Below, piece by piece: positions 1,556 through 22,895 of a stretch of DNA of 23,597 nt. The position numbers and the translations under genes are program-made. The stretch comes from a virus. The notes beneath the pieces were generated by a model, which was not told the origin of the DNA, made no database searches, and saw only the letters and a list, made by a program, of their open reading frames with translations. Numbering within the stretch: the stretch's first letter is position 1; the number at the start of each line of letters is the position of its first letter. The stretch spans positions 1 through 23,597 of the IMG/VR virus record IMGVR_UViG_3300031952_001743. One strand, given 5' to 3'.

Positions 1556-2069
1556 AAAACATAGAAAAAAGAGAATAGAACCGACCATAAAGTCAACGTT
1601 AAAATTAACTCCTTCTGCCCCAACACCTGAGAAAACACAGATGCATTATGATGAGATAGAATATATCCGGGCATTGTTGGCTACTATTCCTAATCTGTCA
1701 GAAGTATCGAGGATAACTGGTAGGAACAGGAATACAATATTAAGGATAAAAAGACTGAGTCAAGATGAGATTTCAGAATATAGAACGTTCAAAACAAAAG
1801 AGTTTGTGAAAAAAGCATGGGAAAAGATTGAATTGCTCATAAAAGCTATTAATGATGGGAAGTGTGCGTTTGCTTCTGTAAATCAACTTACTACTGCAAT
1901 TGGGACATTGTACGACAAGGCAGCCCTGGCAAGTGGGGACGTGACAAACCGCACCGAGCATAAAATCTCAGATATTGATTTATCGAAACTTAGTCTTGAA
2001 GAGAAGTTAAAACTCAGAGAATTTATGTTAAAAATAAATGGAAATGCAACTACAGACACAGACAATTGA
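1548..2069 (+). CDS. terS: Terminase small subunit candidate (HTH protein)
   Basis: This 173-residue protein lies immediately upstream of the large terminase, overlapping it by 32 bases, the usual place for the small subunit that recognises the packaging site and regulates the ATPase. The N-terminus is strongly basic (AKKHRKKR). Residues 37-70 read as a helix-turn-helix: a helix at HYDEIEYIRALLATIP, then NLSEVSRITGRNRNTILRIKRL, typical of phage homeodomain-like HTH. The middle, residues 80-130, is helical with KAWEKIELLIKAIND and a Gln/Thr/Leu helix suited to oligomerisation. The acidic, Ser/Leu-rich C-terminal segment (SDIDLSKLSLEEKLKLREF) would be the part that contacts TerL. Small terminase subunits are poorly conserved, so the call depends on position and the HTH rather than a sequence match. 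Confidence 0.65.
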   Translation: MAKKHRKKRIEPTIKSTLKLTPSAPTPEKTQMHYDEIEYIRALLATIPNLSEVSRITGRNRNTILRIKRLSQDEISEYRTFKTKEFVKKAWEKIELLIKAINDGKCAFASVNQLTTAIGTLYDKAALASGDVTNRTEHKISDIDLSKLSLEEKLKLREFMLKINGNATTDTDN

Positions 2070-4734
2070 TTTCACAAAGCTAAGACTCCCCACCATTGAG
2101 GAAATCGACAAATCAATAGCAGACGATTCTATATCGTTTAGCGATTGGTGTTCTAAAACTCCTGTAATCCTAGATGGCAATAATTTCTCATTTAAAAGGC
2201 ATGAGTATTTGGTAGAGCCATACCAGGACGTGCACAATTGCATTGTAGAGGAGAAAGCTGCACAGATGGGGCTAACCTCCAAGGCGATGCTTTCAGCCCT
2301 GTATGGGTCAAGGTACAGAGGATATAAGGGTATTCTATATTTATTCCCATCCAAGTCAGACGTTTTGGACTTCTCAAAAGGTAGGATTACTCCTCTAATT
2401 GATGATAACCCTGATACGATAGGATCGTGGCTGAGGGATACCGATGCCGCCGGTATTAAGGAGATATGGAACAGTTTTCTCTATCTCAGAGGGATGCAGA
2501 GTAAAATAGGATTAAAATGTCATGACGATCAAACCGAGGTACTTACCAAAGTTGGATGGAGGAAGTTTTCAGACATAAATATGCAAGATGAACTAGCCAC
2601 ACGATCTCCATCAGGTTGTTTTATGTGGCAGCAACCAATAGAGATACATAGTTATAAACATAATGGTAAAATGCTTAAATTTAAGGCTAATGGATTAGAT
2701 ATGTGTATAACCCCAAATCATCGTTTATTATTAACTAATCAGAGTAGAGAGGAGTGGTTTGAGACTGCAGAAAAAGCAAAAAAAGCAAACCATTTTATTG
2801 TAAGAACGTGTAAAAATTGGAAAGGAAAGTTCCCTAAATTTATTGTTAAAGACGGGAGAGACCAAGAAGGCACAAAGAAATTTATTATTATTAAAGGAAA
2901 TAAAAAAAATGGAGCATGGGAAAGTTTTGGTCGTCATCCAGAAAGAAAAATAAATCTAAAAATATTTATTGCTTTTCTAGGGTTATATATAGCAGAGGGT
3001 TGTTGCAGTGGAGTAAAAACAGGGATTAGGCAATTTGGGCGTATACATATTTCTCAAGAAAGAAAATCAAAGCATTTCAAAGAAATAAATGAACTTTTAA
3101 ATAAAATAGAGGTAAATGGACAGGGTATAAAAGGATGGAAATATAATGGTCATAGTTTTCGTGTTGGGGATATGGCGTTTGCAGACATTTTATTTCCTCT
3201 TGGAAATAAATATACAAAGTGTTTACCTGATTGGGTTCTCGATCTTCCTAAAAAATACCTTGAAATTCTATGGGAATGGTTACTAAAGGGTGATGGTCAC
3301 GTAAGTCCAAAAGGATATAGAATTTATGCAACAGTAAGTAAAAAATTAGCGGATCAACTTCAGGAAATACTTCAAAAATGTGGTAGGTCTGCATCCATTC
3401 TAATACAAAAAGGAAATACTGAAGGAAAATTAAAAGATGGAAGATTAGTAAAGTCAACTACTCCATGTTATTTAGTGTCTGAGAGAAAATCTCAATGTTC
3501 TAGGATTCCTATGTCGGAAGAAATGCAGTACAATGGTAAAGTATATTGTGCGTCTGTACCAAACGGTACTATTTATACAAGAAGAAATGGGTATGCTACG
3601 TGGAGTGGTAATTCGATCCCAGTTGACTATATAATTTTCGATGAGTTAGATGAGGCCCCTCAAAACTCTATTGATATGGCAATGGAACGTATGAGTCATA
3701 GTGAGTTTAAGAAGGTGTTAAAACTCTCTAATCCTACCCTACCTGATTACGGAATAGATCGAGCGTTTTTACAAACAGATCAAAGGTATTGGATGTTAAA
3801 GTGTAAGTCCTGCGGTGAATATACCTGCCTTGAGGATACATTCCCTGATTGTTTAATGGAAGTAGGGGATCGAGTTATTAGGGTATGTCAGAAGTGCCAA
3901 GGTGAACTCAACCCTGCTATTGGGGAGTGGGTAGCAAAGAAACTAGGTGTAACAGATAAGCGAGGTTATCATTATTCACAATTGTTTTCTCAGTTTGTTG
4001 ATCCTGCTGACATTCTTCATCAATTCAGAACGACCTCAAATCCTACTGATTTTTACAATCTAAAGATAGGGATTGCCTATGTAGAAGCCGAGAACAGACT
4101 CAGTGTGCAGGAAATACTATCACTGTGTTCTCCCGATGGTATCTCAAGTTCAGACCCAGGTTTATGTTTCATGGGAGTTGACCAAGGGAAGGACCTTCAT
4201 GTAGTCATAGGCAAACATATAGACAACGTTAGTAAAATCATACACATAGGTATTTACAAGGACTGGGAAGAACTTGATAGATTAATGACCATATTTAATG
4301 TGGCAAGATGTGTAGTTGATGCACTTCCAGAGACCCGAAACGCAAGGGCGTTTTCTGATAGGTTTAAAGGCAGAATATATCTCAATTATTACAATGATAG
4401 TCAACGTGGTAGATATTCGTGGAACGAAAAAGACATGATTGTAATGTGTAACAGAACGGAAAGTCTTGACGCTTCCCATAATGAGATAATGCACAAAAAC
4501 ATTATTTTACCAAAAGAGTGTGATATTGTTAATATATTTGCTAGACACTGTGCAAACATAGCCAAGAAGCTAGAAGAGGATGAGGAGACAGGGAATAAAC
4601 GATATGTGTATGTTAAGTTAGGAGATGATCATTTCAGACATGCGTACAATTATGAATGTATGGCGAGGACTGAGGGGGCTGGTCATTTCTGGTATGCAGA
4701 TGAGTTTAACTATAAAAGTGTGTTTAATGCGTAG
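2038..4734 (+). CDS. terL: Terminase large subunit (GpA-like) interrupted by an intein
   Basis: The 898-residue precursor has a terminase large subunit split by an intein at residues 161-525; the spliced product would be 533 residues. In the N-extein, KAAQMGLTS at residues 73-81 is a deviant Walker A like that of GpA-type terminases. The Walker B strand, VDYIIFDELDEAP, starts four residues after the intein, with Asp535 and Glu536 as the magnesium and catalytic residues. The C-extein then has two CxxC pairs (CKSCG and CQKCQG), a zinc-ribbon-like insertion, and an RNase H-like nuclease domain: GVDQGKD with Asp715, VVDALPETRNA with Asp761, and GDDHFRHAYNY near residue 864. The enzyme pumps phage DNA into the prohead through the portal and cuts it. 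The start overlaps the small-subunit gene and has no clear ribosome site, so translation is probably coupled. An alternative ATG lies two codons downstream. Confidence 0.92.
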   Translation: MEMQLQTQTIDFTKLRLPTIEEIDKSIADDSISFSDWCSKTPVILDGNNFSFKRHEYLVEPYQDVHNCIVEEKAAQMGLTSKAMLSALYGSRYRGYKGILYLFPSKSDVLDFSKGRITPLIDDNPDTIGSWLRDTDAAGIKEIWNSFLYLRGMQSKIGLKCHDDQTEVLTKVGWRKFSDINMQDELATRSPSGCFMWQQPIEIHSYKHNGKMLKFKANGLDMCITPNHRLLLTNQSREEWFETAEKAKKANHFIVRTCKNWKGKFPKFIVKDGRDQEGTKKFIIIKGNKKNGAWESFGRHPERKINLKIFIAFLGLYIAEGCCSGVKTGIRQFGRIHISQERKSKHFKEINELLNKIEVNGQGIKGWKYNGHSFRVGDMAFADILFPLGNKYTKCLPDWVLDLPKKYLEILWEWLLKGDGHVSPKGYRIYATVSKKLADQLQEILQKCGRSASILIQKGNTEGKLKDGRLVKSTTPCYLVSERKSQCSRIPMSEEMQYNGKVYCASVPNGTIYTRRNGYATWSGNSIPVDYIIFDELDEAPQNSIDMAMERMSHSEFKKVLKLSNPTLPDYGIDRAFLQTDQRYWMLKCKSCGEYTCLEDTFPDCLMEVGDRVIRVCQKCQGELNPAIGEWVAKKLGVTDKRGYHYSQLFSQFVDPADILHQFRTTSNPTDFYNLKIGIAYVEAENRLSVQEILSLCSPDGISSSDPGLCFMGVDQGKDLHVVIGKHIDNVSKIIHIGIYKDWEELDRLMTIFNVARCVVDALPETRNARAFSDRFKGRIYLNYYNDSQRGRYSWNEKDMIVMCNRTESLDASHNEIMHKNIILPKECDIVNIFARHCANIAKKLEEDEETGNKRYVYVKLGDDHFRHAYNYECMARTEGAGHFWYADEFNYKSVFNA
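2518..3612 (+). mobile_element. In-frame intein with LAGLIDADG homing endonuclease inside terL
   Basis: Residues 161-525 of the TerL precursor form a 365-residue intein. It begins at Cys161 (block A, CHDDQTEVLTKVGWRKF), has a block B with TPNHRLL (Thr225, His228), and ends with a block F/G of the form SVPNGTIYTRRNG then WSGN, with Asn525 as terminal residue and Ser526 as the +1 nucleophile. Between the splicing blocks lie two dodecapeptide motifs of a LAGLIDADG (DOD) endonuclease: FLGLYIAEG at residues 313-321 and WLLKGDGH at 414-421. The penultimate residue is Gly instead of the usual His. The insertion is immediately before the Walker B strand, a conserved active-site region favoured by inteins. 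The intein is fully in frame with no stops and appears more A-rich than the flanking terminase. Splicing competence is inferred from intact motifs. Confidence 0.93.
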
Positions 4735-18008: not shown

Positions 18009-21000
18009 ATGATGCCTCTGGCATTAGAAGAGCAATACCCAAAATATAAAGATAAGATAGTTACAGCAAGAAACTATGGATATGCTGATGATGATATCCT
18101 TGGTAAAATTAATGGGAAGGTAAATGAAGCTCGTGGTTACGGTTATACTGATGAAGAAATACTTGACCATTTAGGCTCACCTAAAACTCCCCCACCAGAA
18201 GAAATTCCTCAAGCACCATATTATGACATCAATACTGCTACTGGAAATGCAATGGTGTCACAAGATGGCAAGACGTTTGCTCAAGCACGTCCTGCCGCAC
18301 CTCCACCAGAAGAACAACCAACCCAAGAAGATGAGGGTATTTGGTGGCATGAACTTCCCTCAAAAGATAGAATTGAGGATATACAACAGACAATTAATAA
18401 TGGAGAACCAAGAAAATCCGACCCACTTCCTGCTGATTCTTTAATCAAAAGAATGTCTGGTGCTGGTTTCACCGCAGAACAAATAGACAAAGAATTAAAT
18501 CATTATTTTAATGTTACCAGTAAAACTAATTGGAGTTCAAGTACTTTACAACCTTGGAAAATGCGTCTTAGCAAAACACCCACACCCTCTATTGCTTCTC
18601 CTGACAGAATTCTACCAGAACAACCACAACTTCCCACCCCCATACCATCCTATGCTGAAATAGCAGGTGGTGTCACTCCCGAAGCAGTAGAACTCGCAAA
18701 AGGACAGGTAGAAGCGGGGATGTCTACCGCATCAGGACTATCTGCATTTTTACCACAACTAGGTGCTAGAATTTTAGGTGGATACACAAAGGGGCCAGAA
18801 TGGGCAGAGAAAACCTCGCAATTTCTTACCTACGAACCAAGAACAGAACAAGGGAAAACAATATCGGGAACACTTAATTACCCCTTTGCTTTGCTAGGTC
18901 AAGCAGAAGATAAATTAGTTGAGTTATCAAATAAAAATCCTGGTCTATATAGTATGGTACTAGGCAGTCCTGCCTTTGAGCGAATGACACCAGAGCAGAG
19001 AGAGCATGAGGTAAGGATTGCATTTCAAGGTGGATTATTAGCAACACCATTCATAAAGAATTTGTTTAAAAAGGCTAAAGTATCCATACCAGAGACAAGA
19101 CCCATAGAAGCACCAAAAGCCTTACCTGCTCCCGAAGAACAGATAGCTTTACCTGTTTCTCCAGAGTTAAAAGCACTTCCAGAAGCAGGGATAAACGGGA
19201 CGTCAGCCGAAGAAGTTAGAAAGATGGTGGAACGGCAGAGTGTTAAAGAAGTCAAGCCACCAGAAGGATTTAAAAAGGTTGACTTCGGTGTAAATACTGG
19301 GTTAGAAGGAGATAAACTAGAACGTGCATGGGATGACTTTCAAACTTCTTTTACTGGCGATATTCCACCCAGTGAACATTTCCAAAGTTGGATGAAAAAT
19401 AGATATAGTAAATTCAAAGAACCCCCACCCATTGAAGGGAAAGTTAAGCCACCTCACAAAATGACATTGGAGGAGTTCAAGAATTATGATTTTGAAACTC
19501 CTGTAGGTGGTGGGAGTGTAAAACCTTCAACCATATGGAAATGGAGAAAAGGCAAACCAGAAGAAGTAGGAGAAACACTTGCTGACTTAGCAACACATAC
19601 GGATGACTTTAGGTTTAAGGAAGTTCTTGGTAAAGGATGGGAACATGAATGGAAGAACAGTCTATCATTAGAAAATGATATTAAACAAGGGAAGGAAATT
19701 ACTATATGGAGGGCAAGACCAAAAGGAGAACCATCAGAAATAATGCCAGGTTCTTATGTTTCGGAGTCTAGAGAATATGCAACCAAACATGGTGAGAATA
19801 TTTTGGGTGGAGACTATACATTAGTTAGTGAGAAAGTGCACCCAGACGAGTTATTAATTTATGGCGACCCTCATGAGTTCATTTATTATCCAAGAAATGC
19901 AGAAATCGCTCACCAAAGAATTATAGAAAAAGCCCGTCCTGAAGGGAAAGTTAAACCACAAGAGGAAGTTGTTGCAGAGAAGTCAGCAGTTGAACCGTAC
20001 GAGAAGAAAGAACCATTAAAGATGTATCATCAGTCAGATACGGGTGAGTTGAAACTTGGAAAAGATATTTATGGCTTAGGAGAAGGTTATTTTGTATCAA
20101 GCAAAAAACTACCGAAAGGTTTCTACGGAAGCAAAGATGTAACAATATATCTTAAACCAGAAACAAAATTGTTTGACTTTCAACAGTGGGCAAAGGAAAG
20201 CAATAAAAAATTAAGAATACCGCCAGAAGATAGGGCAAAAATAATTGAGGAAGCATCAACTATAGCTAGGGAAGAAGGATATGATGGCATAGAGATAATG
20301 CCGGATGATATTTGGGTGTTTGACAAAAAGAGTATTATCCCGAAGGAGACTCCCAAGACCCTTACCAAACGTGAGGCATATTTAGAGAAAAGGAAAGGTA
20401 TTAAACCCATTGCCGAGATGCAGAAGGAGACAAAACCTCCACCATATTTATATCACGGGACAACACAAGGAGCACTTAGAAAAATAGTTTCTGATGGTTT
20501 AAAACCATCCACAATGAGGCAGATTTCTTTGTCTGATACAGAACAGTATGCCAAGACGTATGCTGACAGAAAAGGGGGGAGTAGAGGTATTATTCTTAGG
20601 ATAAAAAATAGTGAGAAGTATGTACCAGATACTAGGATACCAGAAGGAGGAGATTACTTATCAAAAGAAGCAGTTAAACCAGAAGATATTGAAGTCAAAA
20701 TGCCAAATGGCTCATGGGAGAAGTTGACTGATGTAGATGTATCAATGGGGAAGCCAGAGAAAAAAACTCTTAAGTCTATTTCCACCATGCAGAAGGAGAT
20801 AAAGGAAGGTGGGCAGGTTGAAAAGACAATAGAGAAGATGGTGGAGAAACCAGTTGAGGAAGTAAAGCCAGTTGAGAAGGAATACGGTATCAAAGACATC
20901 CTCAAGGATATAGATACTTCTTTGGGTGGAAAAGAACGTGGCTCATTCTCTGTAAAGGGGTTAACGAAGGAGCAATTAGAAGCACGACAGCGACTTGCAA

Positions 21001-22895
21001 AACGAGGGAAGGAATGGAAAGAGGAGTTTAAGAAGCAAGCAGCAGGCACTTTTAAGGATTTTAGGGACTTTCTTAGTTCCAAGGGATTAAGTGATGATAA
21101 GAAAACAAAACTGCTTTTATACATGAAACAGGAAGATAAAGTAAATAAGGAATTAGAAAACATAAAGGGAAAGGGAATATTTACCAAAGAGGAGTTAGAG
21201 ATAAAAGACGAGTTAACAAAAAAGGGGAAAGTAGCGAATGAACAAGCACAGAAAGTTCAGGAAGAACAAAAAACTGCTTTAGACAAAATGGTTGATGCAG
21301 TTAAAAAGGCTAAAGCACCAAGAAAGGAATTAGAAAAACTATATAGGGAGGAAAGAAGGAAACGAGCTGGGGCAATTGCTGGTATCATGGAAAAAGGTGA
21401 AGGAGAAAAGGGTTATTATCAATCTTTGTCTAAATTAAAAGGTGAGTTAGCACCAGAGAAACCAAGATATGAAGGAATAAAAAATAAATTAACTCAAGAT
21501 GATGTTGATTCACTTTTCTCTACAATTCAAAAGCATAAAGACTTAAACCCATTTGAGAAGATTACTGCGCAAACAGGGTTATACAATGTTTTTAATGGAA
21601 AGATACCACCCCATAGTCAACTGTCTTTATTAGAAGATGTTTTTGGTAAAGAATTAGTAGAAGCAGTAATAAGCAAAAGACCGTTTAGTAGAAAATTAAT
21701 GGACATGACGACCGAAGTTTTAAACATCCCTAAAACCCTTACCACATTTCTTGATATGTCCGCAGTATTAAGACAAGGGATATTTTTTGTTAGAAGGTTT
21801 CCTTCGGTTGGTAGGTCAATAAAGCAAATGTTTAGACAGGTATTTTCGCAAAAGAACTTTGATAATTGGTTAGATGATTTAAAGCACAGTAAAGATTATG
21901 AAGTAATGAAAGAATCAAAACTCTACATCGCTGACCCAAATAAAATTTCTGGTGGTCTTTCTGCAAAAGAAGAAAGATTTATGACCAACTTGGCTGAAAG
22001 AATACCCACTATAGGAAGAGGTGTCAAGGCTAGTGAAAGAGCATATGTTGGATACCTTAATGCACTAAGAGTTGACGTATTCAGGCAAATAGCAAAGAAA
22101 ATGCAAGAGAAAGGTTATGATCCAAAAGAGAACCCCAAAGTTTTTAAAAGTATTGCTGATTTGGTCAACAATGGAACAGGAAGGGGAGATATTGGAAGGT
22201 TACAACCAATAGCACAGGAATTAAACACTGCATTTTTTTCACCAAGACTTATTGCTGCCAGGTTTAATTTATTATTAAACCCAATGTTCTATGCGAAACT
22301 TGAGAAACCGGTAAGAATGGAAGCAGTTAAGGACTGGTTAGGATTTGTTGGTATTGGAATGACAGTACTGGCACTTGCAAAATTAAACGGTGCAGATGTT
22401 GAAGTCGATCTTAGAAGTAGTGATTTTGGTAAAATAAAAGTAGGAAACACAAGATGGGATATATGGGGTGGATTTCAACAATGGGTAAGACTTGCAGCAC
22501 AATTAGCGAGCAAACAAAGAAAGTCAACAAGCACTGGTAAGATTTATGAATTATCAGGGAAAAAGTTTCCCTTTGAAACCAGGTTAGATGTAGCAACTAG
22601 ATTTATTAAAGGGAAACTTGCACCAGTTCCATCTTTAGTAGTTGAATTATTGGAAGGACAAAAAATTTATGGTGGTGACATAACCCTTAAAGAAGAAGCT
22701 ATTGAAAGAATGATACCAATGTATATTCAAGATATTGATGACGCAATAAAACAGTTCGGGCCAGAGGCAATATTTACTACTGGTGTTCCTGCGTTCTTTG
22801 GTACTGGTGTTCAAACATACGAAGAAAAAAAGAAAACTTCCACAAGCGAAGGTAGAAGCAGAGGAAGCATGAGTCGAACCAGGACAGGTAGATAA
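18009..22895 (+). CDS. Giant multidomain virion protein with three ADP-ribosyltransferase-like modules
   Basis: 1628 residues, start ATG ATG preceded by AGAGGA. Residues 10-55 have a duplicated ARNYGYADDDIL / ARGYGYTDEEIL motif. Pro-rich linkers join three ART-like modules: about 560-640 (ITIWRARP, YVSESREYATKHG, EFIYYP), 668-780 (MYHQSDTG, GEGYFVSSKKL, REEGYDGIEIMP) and 812-900 (YLYHGTTQGAL, ISLSDTEQYAKTYADRKG, GIILRI). A lysine-rich coiled-coil stretch follows at about 1000-1160. The C-terminal 450 residues resemble domains of large phage polyvalent/internal proteins (LRQGIFFVRRFPS, FFSPRLIAARFNLLLNPMF, TRWDIWGGFQQWVRLAAQ) with a hydrophobic helix near 1443-1462 (WLGFVGIGMTVLALAK). Likely ejected with the DNA into the host. 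Catalytic activity is inferred; domain folds were assigned by motif reading only. Confidence 0.75.
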   Translation: MMPLALEEQYPKYKDKIVTARNYGYADDDILGKINGKVNEARGYGYTDEEILDHLGSPKTPPPEEIPQAPYYDINTATGNAMVSQDGKTFAQARPAAPPPEEQPTQEDEGIWWHELPSKDRIEDIQQTINNGEPRKSDPLPADSLIKRMSGAGFTAEQIDKELNHYFNVTSKTNWSSSTLQPWKMRLSKTPTPSIASPDRILPEQPQLPTPIPSYAEIAGGVTPEAVELAKGQVEAGMSTASGLSAFLPQLGARILGGYTKGPEWAEKTSQFLTYEPRTEQGKTISGTLNYPFALLGQAEDKLVELSNKNPGLYSMVLGSPAFERMTPEQREHEVRIAFQGGLLATPFIKNLFKKAKVSIPETRPIEAPKALPAPEEQIALPVSPELKALPEAGINGTSAEEVRKMVERQSVKEVKPPEGFKKVDFGVNTGLEGDKLERAWDDFQTSFTGDIPPSEHFQSWMKNRYSKFKEPPPIEGKVKPPHKMTLEEFKNYDFETPVGGGSVKPSTIWKWRKGKPEEVGETLADLATHTDDFRFKEVLGKGWEHEWKNSLSLENDIKQGKEITIWRARPKGEPSEIMPGSYVSESREYATKHGENILGGDYTLVSEKVHPDELLIYGDPHEFIYYPRNAEIAHQRIIEKARPEGKVKPQEEVVAEKSAVEPYEKKEPLKMYHQSDTGELKLGKDIYGLGEGYFVSSKKLPKGFYGSKDVTIYLKPETKLFDFQQWAKESNKKLRIPPEDRAKIIEEASTIAREEGYDGIEIMPDDIWVFDKKSIIPKETPKTLTKREAYLEKRKGIKPIAEMQKETKPPPYLYHGTTQGALRKIVSDGLKPSTMRQISLSDTEQYAKTYADRKGGSRGIILRIKNSEKYVPDTRIPEGGDYLSKEAVKPEDIEVKMPNGSWEKLTDVDVSMGKPEKKTLKSISTMQKEIKEGGQVEKTIEKMVEKPVEEVKPVEKEYGIKDILKDIDTSLGGKERGSFSVKGLTKEQLEARQRLAKRGKEWKEEFKKQAAGTFKDFRDFLSSKGLSDDKKTKLLLYMKQEDKVNKELENIKGKGIFTKEELEIKDELTKKGKVANEQAQKVQEEQKTALDKMVDAVKKAKAPRKELEKLYREERRKRAGAIAGIMEKGEGEKGYYQSLSKLKGELAPEKPRYEGIKNKLTQDDVDSLFSTIQKHKDLNPFEKITAQTGLYNVFNGKIPPHSQLSLLEDVFGKELVEAVISKRPFSRKLMDMTTEVLNIPKTLTTFLDMSAVLRQGIFFVRRFPSVGRSIKQMFRQVFSQKNFDNWLDDLKHSKDYEVMKESKLYIADPNKISGGLSAKEERFMTNLAERIPTIGRGVKASERAYVGYLNALRVDVFRQIAKKMQEKGYDPKENPKVFKSIADLVNNGTGRGDIGRLQPIAQELNTAFFSPRLIAARFNLLLNPMFYAKLEKPVRMEAVKDWLGFVGIGMTVLALAKLNGADVEVDLRSSDFGKIKVGNTRWDIWGGFQQWVRLAAQLASKQRKSTSTGKIYELSGKKFPFETRLDVATRFIKGKLAPVPSLVVELLEGQKIYGGDITLKEEAIERMIPMYIQDIDDAIKQFGPEAIFTTGVPAFFGTGVQTYEEKKKTSTSEGRSRGSMSRTRTGR

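Follow-up and report, generated by a model that had tools for sequence, protein, structure and literature searches.

The locus raises the question of what a stretch of 365 residues represents that stands in frame within a large terminase gene, between the P-loop half of the ATPase and its Walker B strand, and whether it is better understood as a mobile element or as a timing switch for DNA packaging. Throughout, the window denotes the whole stretch of DNA that was analysed, i.e., 23,597 nucleotides of an IMG/VR virus record (IMGVR_UViG_3300031952_001743). The original prediction of an intein with a LAGLIDADG endonuclease at positions 2518-3612 is borne out by family profiles, by empty sites in relatives and by a confidently modelled fold, and it is almost certain that the large terminase gene of this phage has been invaded by a class 1 intein of full length that includes a homing endonuclease of the LAGLIDADG family.

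The interrupted terminase gene and its neighbourhood

The open reading frame at 2038-4734 of the window runs for 898 residues without interruption and is identified as a large terminase by the profile phrog_675, and the Pfam profile GpA_ATPase matches it from residue 525 on (coordinates and E-values in Table 1). Both flanks of the insert align to intein-free relatives, in line with a large terminase of the GpA type (phrog_675). The intein makes up residues 161-525 of the reading frame, between Lys160 and Ser526, and in the C-terminal extein the Walker B motif FDE is found at residues 534-536, followed by the nuclease part.

Directly upstream of the large subunit, positions 1548-2069 encode a product of 173 amino acids that is likely the small terminase subunit and for which the family searches (Pfam, PHROGs) returned no match, and just 5′ of the terminase genes there is an endolysin-like Peptidase_M15_4 gene (972-1313). 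Further away, at 18009-22895, the window encodes a protein of 1628 residues with a weak match to RNA 2′-phosphotransferases (KptA-like) at about residues 798-868, a ParB C-terminal-like match at about residues 562-632 and, as judged by eye, repeated ADP-ribosyltransferase-like stretches; it looks like a multi-domain virion protein or injected phage protein.

Table 1. Features of the intein-bearing large terminase gene (positions in the window; fractions are counts among the 45 aligned inteins)
Feature	Position	Strand	Evidence
N-extein, terminase residues 1-160	2038..2517	+	gapless alignment to intein-free TerL relatives through Lys160
Class 1 intein with LAGLIDADG homing endonuclease, 365 aa, Cys1-Asn365	2518..3612	+	empty sites, Pfam, model, PDB matches
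Block A CHDDQTEVLT, N-terminal splice junction, Cys1	2518..2547	+	direct reading; Cys1 45/45, by construction
Block B TPNH, intein 65-68	2710..2721	+	Thr65 44/45, His68 45/45
First dodecapeptide region LGLYIAEG, intein 154-161, acidic Glu160	2977..3000	+	Glu/Asp160 45/45, Gly161 45/45
Second dodecapeptide region WLLKGDG, intein 254-260, acidic Asp259	3277..3297	+	Asp259 43/45
Blocks F+G, VYCASVPNGTIYTRRNGYATWSGN, C-terminal splice junction, Gly364-Asn365	3541..3612	+	Gly364 43/45; same block in L048
C-extein, terminase residues 526-898	3613..4731	+	phrog_675 E 1.4e-97; GpA_ATPase E 7.6e-13

Empty sites in terminase relatives

Terminase relatives were collected by IMG/VR scans, and 81 loci were examined, some of which are overlapping copies of one contig. 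With respect to the junction of the two flanks, 58 of these 81 loci have no extra residue at all, the usual reading of the empty site being ...GLK/S[IV]P... (the slash marks the joint), typically RGMKSRVGLK/SIPVDFIVFDELDE. A further 18 loci, which are more distant terminases, have 9-12 residues in the insertion loop, and the rest comprise one intein-occupied locus, one that ends at the joint and three without coverage of the joint. Apart from the occupied locus, the homologues that cover the joint thus do without the in-frame insertion. The empty joint nearest in nucleotide sequence to that of the window is found in L036, matching at 32 of 42 bases. At the loci that could be read at the joint, the occupied one included, the +1 residue is Ser in 64 of 69 and the -1 residue Lys in 59 of 69.

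The seamless junction in 58 relatives makes the boundaries of the insert exact, and the counts at the joint across loci imply that the insert can be removed with a seamless join; intein-free relatives are joined exactly where the join of Lys160 to Ser526 had been foreseen. The +1 Ser nucleophile is most likely a conserved terminase residue that predates the arrival of the intein. It lies nine residues ahead of the Walker B Asp535, and of the position first proposed, four residues before VDYIIFDELDE, the placement just ahead of Walker B holds, the spacing being three residues (Ser-Ile-Pro) and not four. An intein-free terminase model, meant for placing the site in three dimensions, reached a pLDDT of 47 and was left out.

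The same comparisons dispose of the view that the 365 residues belong to the terminase itself as a natural domain or result from an assembly join, and are not an intein. This view retains practically no probability, as 76 terminase relatives do without the residues, the same site is occupied in a contig assembled independently from a different metagenome, and the empty sites together with the intein fold described below refute it.

Profiles and fold of the insert

In the Pfam search, which had been suggested as a check for residues 161-525, LAGLIDADG_3 was found within the insert above the cut-off (E 2.7e-6) and Intein_splicing (E 2.7e-5) at 24.5 bits, i.e., under the curated cut-off of 35.8 bits, and neither of the two proteins searched against NCBIfam gave a match. 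A loose intein signature occurs once in the six-frame translation of the window and not a single time in 60 codon shuffles of it.

The window intein was aligned with 44 relatives, giving 45 sequences, of which 38 contain LAGLIDADG_3. As alignment rows had to start with Cys and to end with Asn, the constancy of Cys1 is by construction, and the invariance of Tyr338, Gly340, Tyr343 and Cys344, which were included in the search patterns, was not counted as evidence. When compared to solved structures, the profile of the aligned inteins matched PI-PkoII (3.9e-21) and also V-ATPase inteins and PI-SceI.

A structure model computed from the 45-intein alignment has a mean pLDDT of 89.5 and a pTM of 0.90. 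Comparison with the PDB by Foldseek and VIA-align over the whole length (1-365) gave inteins with LAGLIDADG endonucleases as the top matches, with Z-scores of 26.4 for TliVMA, 26.1 for PI-PkoII and 23.6 for PhoVMA; further Z-scores were 21 for PI-SceI and PI-PfuI and 17.8 for NpuDnaE. The model thus has the Hint fold, and together with the sequence it shows that the insert at 2518-3612 consists of a Hint splicing domain split by an endonuclease domain.

Splicing residues, class and endonuclease

The intact frame, Cys1, TPNH, the two dodecapeptide motifs and the terminal Asn followed by Ser, all of them named in the original prediction, can be read directly from the translation, in which the last residues of the insert are WSGN and the next one is Ser526. 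Based on Cys1, Thr65, His68, Asn365 and the +1 Ser, the insert is a class 1 intein.

A penultimate His is usual in inteins but not obligatory, and its absence does not bar membership. The window intein has Gly364 at this position, as do most of the aligned inteins (Gly in 43 of 45), and it also lacks the block F His, which is replaced by Gly350. Both helper histidines are missing in 24 of the 45 inteins and their loss should therefore be considered a habit of the family and not a sign of decay, even if it could make Asn cyclisation slower.

Class 3 inteins have no nucleophile at position 1 and are marked by a Trp-Cys-Thr triplet at B:12, F:4 and G:5. Membership of this class was considered from the block F Cys and a match to AceL NrdHF, and was ruled out by the presence of Cys1 and the lack of the Trp: the corresponding positions are taken by Leu70, two past His68, by Cys344 in block F and by Ser363 at G:5, so that only the block F Cys of the triplet is present.

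In the endonuclease part, a LAGLIDADG homing endonuclease is identified by a pair of dodecapeptide motifs, both of which contain an acidic residue, and Lys234, which lies between them, is found in 42 of the 45 aligned inteins. Glu160, Lys234 and Asp259 are the residues usual for such endonucleases and are conserved across the family.

A second allele and the probable mobility of the intein

An IMG/VR scan with the intein alone as query gave no match, and the sole other allele seen at the Lys160/Ser526 site was found by scanning the terminase relatives. This allele, L048 (IMGVR_UViG_3300010339_000134), comes from an independent contig of a different metagenome and carries, at the identical insertion point in a terminase gene of the same family, the terminal part of the same intein; it ends at the contig edge and is 62-63% identical to the window intein over the C-terminal 60 residues, the part available. 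It differs in residing in a GC-rich terminase: its GC content is 0.397 in the intein versus 0.57 in the host gene, and 0.28 versus 0.78 at third positions. In the window, too, the intein is AT-richer than its host gene, with a GC content of 0.334 next to flanks of 0.417 and 0.390, the contrast being striking in L048.

In the terminase tree, L048 is not the sister of the window TerL and is grouped, with good support, with intein-free terminases, and at least two changes are required to explain the presence of the intein on this tree. With L048 placed among intein-free terminases, the distribution of the terminase intein is, as far as these sequences go, patchy, as expected for a mobile element. 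Over 47 aligned codons of the window intein and L048, dN is 0.20 and dS is saturated, and the combination of AT-richness, few amino-acid compared to silent changes, and placement is by all appearances the pattern of a functional mobile element.

This bears also on the possibility of a decayed intein that has lost splicing or homing and is kept as a linker or dead gene. Only two alleles have been seen, which leaves some room for such a reading; nevertheless, it is very improbable given that all catalytic residues for splicing and for the endonuclease are present in an open frame, that amino-acid changes against L048 are few compared to silent ones, and that the model is confident in both domains.

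Predicted splicing and homing, and the start of packaging

According to established intein chemistry, Cys1 would form a thioester with Lys160, Ser526 would attack this thioester and Asn365 would then cyclise, and the ligation of Lys160 to Ser526 would result in a normal terminase of 533 residues. The freed intein would cut the empty site of intein-free terminase genes in mixed infections, and repair after the cut would copy the intein into these genes. Since the insert stands between the P-loop part of the ATPase and Walker B, the precursor would be unable to hydrolyse ATP or to package DNA before splicing, and it may soundly be inferred that packaging requires splicing of the terminase precursor.

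It had further been proposed that the intein might be a post-translational timing switch. Splicing on a cue such as redox state, temperature or late infection would then time the start of packaging, and an intein without helper histidines, splicing slowly or conditionally, would keep the motor inactive until late in infection. The site adjoins Walker B and an unspliced precursor is expected to be inactive, as such a switch demands, but the intein is absent from most terminase relatives, which therefore time packaging without need of it. Both helper histidines are indeed missing from the window intein, but their loss is common across the family, in many unrelated genes. The penultimate residue is variable in phage inteins and this variation has been argued to tune splicing (Kelley et al., PMC5050341), but in the same work the mycobacteriophage RDF intein with its native penultimate Gly showed fast and complete splicing whereas its His mutant was slow, and all five terminase inteins that were assayed spliced readily (PMC5050341). 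The sequence bears no sign of conditional splicing, and we consider a cue-dependent switch, or slow splicing that delays the motor, very improbable.

Kin in other genes and phages

Relatives of the window intein are found in many genes of unrelated phages and in some archaeal and bacterial genomes. Amongst those that sequence context places in other terminases, the site is Walker B itself in L111, L133 and L141, the nuclease site in L132, L135 and others, and the loop ahead of Walker B in L155, with terminase identity given by PHROGs profile for L133 and L155 only.

The closest full-length relatives, L097/L098, share 37% identity over 365 residues with the window intein and form a group with it and L103 in the intein tree (SH-aLRT 98). 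They differ from it in residing in portal genes (the L097 host gene is the portal protein phrog_2662, portal by profile for L097 only) and in having Cys as +1 residue. Together with L103, these portal kin hint that inteins have moved from one gene to another within a single packaging module, and with the nearest kin in portal genes a jump between packaging genes becomes a testable idea.

A phage protein of 1221 residues (L121, 1217-4882) apparently contains two inteins of the same family, and the first of its junctions, ...AIAQ/SESTRGGYHPSLIILDE, reads like a terminase loop before Walker B. Among named phages, Lak-A1 gave the best match over the full length. It was at first suspected of being a terminase intein at the same site, since its alignment extended into the flank upstream, but its exteins do not resemble a terminase and the flank similarity is apparently due to chance.

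Comparison with known terminase inteins

Inteins in terminases are already known, as the original prediction held; near Walker B, one is TerL1-e of mycobacteriophages (PMC5050341), and another was identified in this analysis in phage GMA6. In mycobacteriophages, no proteins host inteins more often than terminases do, and the seven terminase sites (TerL1-a to -e, TerL6-f and Pham3880-g) all fall in the ATPase domain, one of them in Walker B (Kelley et al. 2016, PMC5050341); the two terminase inteins assayed as endonucleases cut the empty site (PMC5050341). Like the window intein they reside in the ATPase domain, beside the P-loop, Walker B or the C-motif (PMC5050341), whereas their hosts belong to Terminase_1, Terminase_6 and a terminase-like family and not to the GpA-type phrog_675, a family for which no earlier intein report was found. 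TerL1-e is an earlier terminase intein near Walker B, and TerL1-c and -e were placed among the class 3 inteins (PMC5050341), in contrast to the class 1 intein of the window.

The intein of Gordonia phage GMA6 (KR063280, GMA6_3; terminase gene at 370-2850 of L020) is situated between ...KYKFQ and SAEYQFIGFDE and shares with the window intein a +1 Ser nine residues ahead of the Walker B Asp. Its GenBank record is labelled large terminase only, and a literature search found no paper on GMA6 and an intein together. The host protein differs in having a Terminase_6C nuclease domain (phrog_979), and the GMA6 intein is about 25% identical to the window intein and separate from it in the intein tree. 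The loop before Walker B has hence been invaded at equal distance from the catalytic Asp in two distant terminase families.

PI-PkoII and TliVMA (2cw7, 7qsu) are like the window intein in their whole-length fold, Hint plus LAGLIDADG (Z 26), but they reside in archaeal cellular genes and are only 16-17% identical to it. The window intein is a well-preserved new allele of a known type of element; it adds one more to the terminase families invaded by inteins and otherwise matches what the field would expect.
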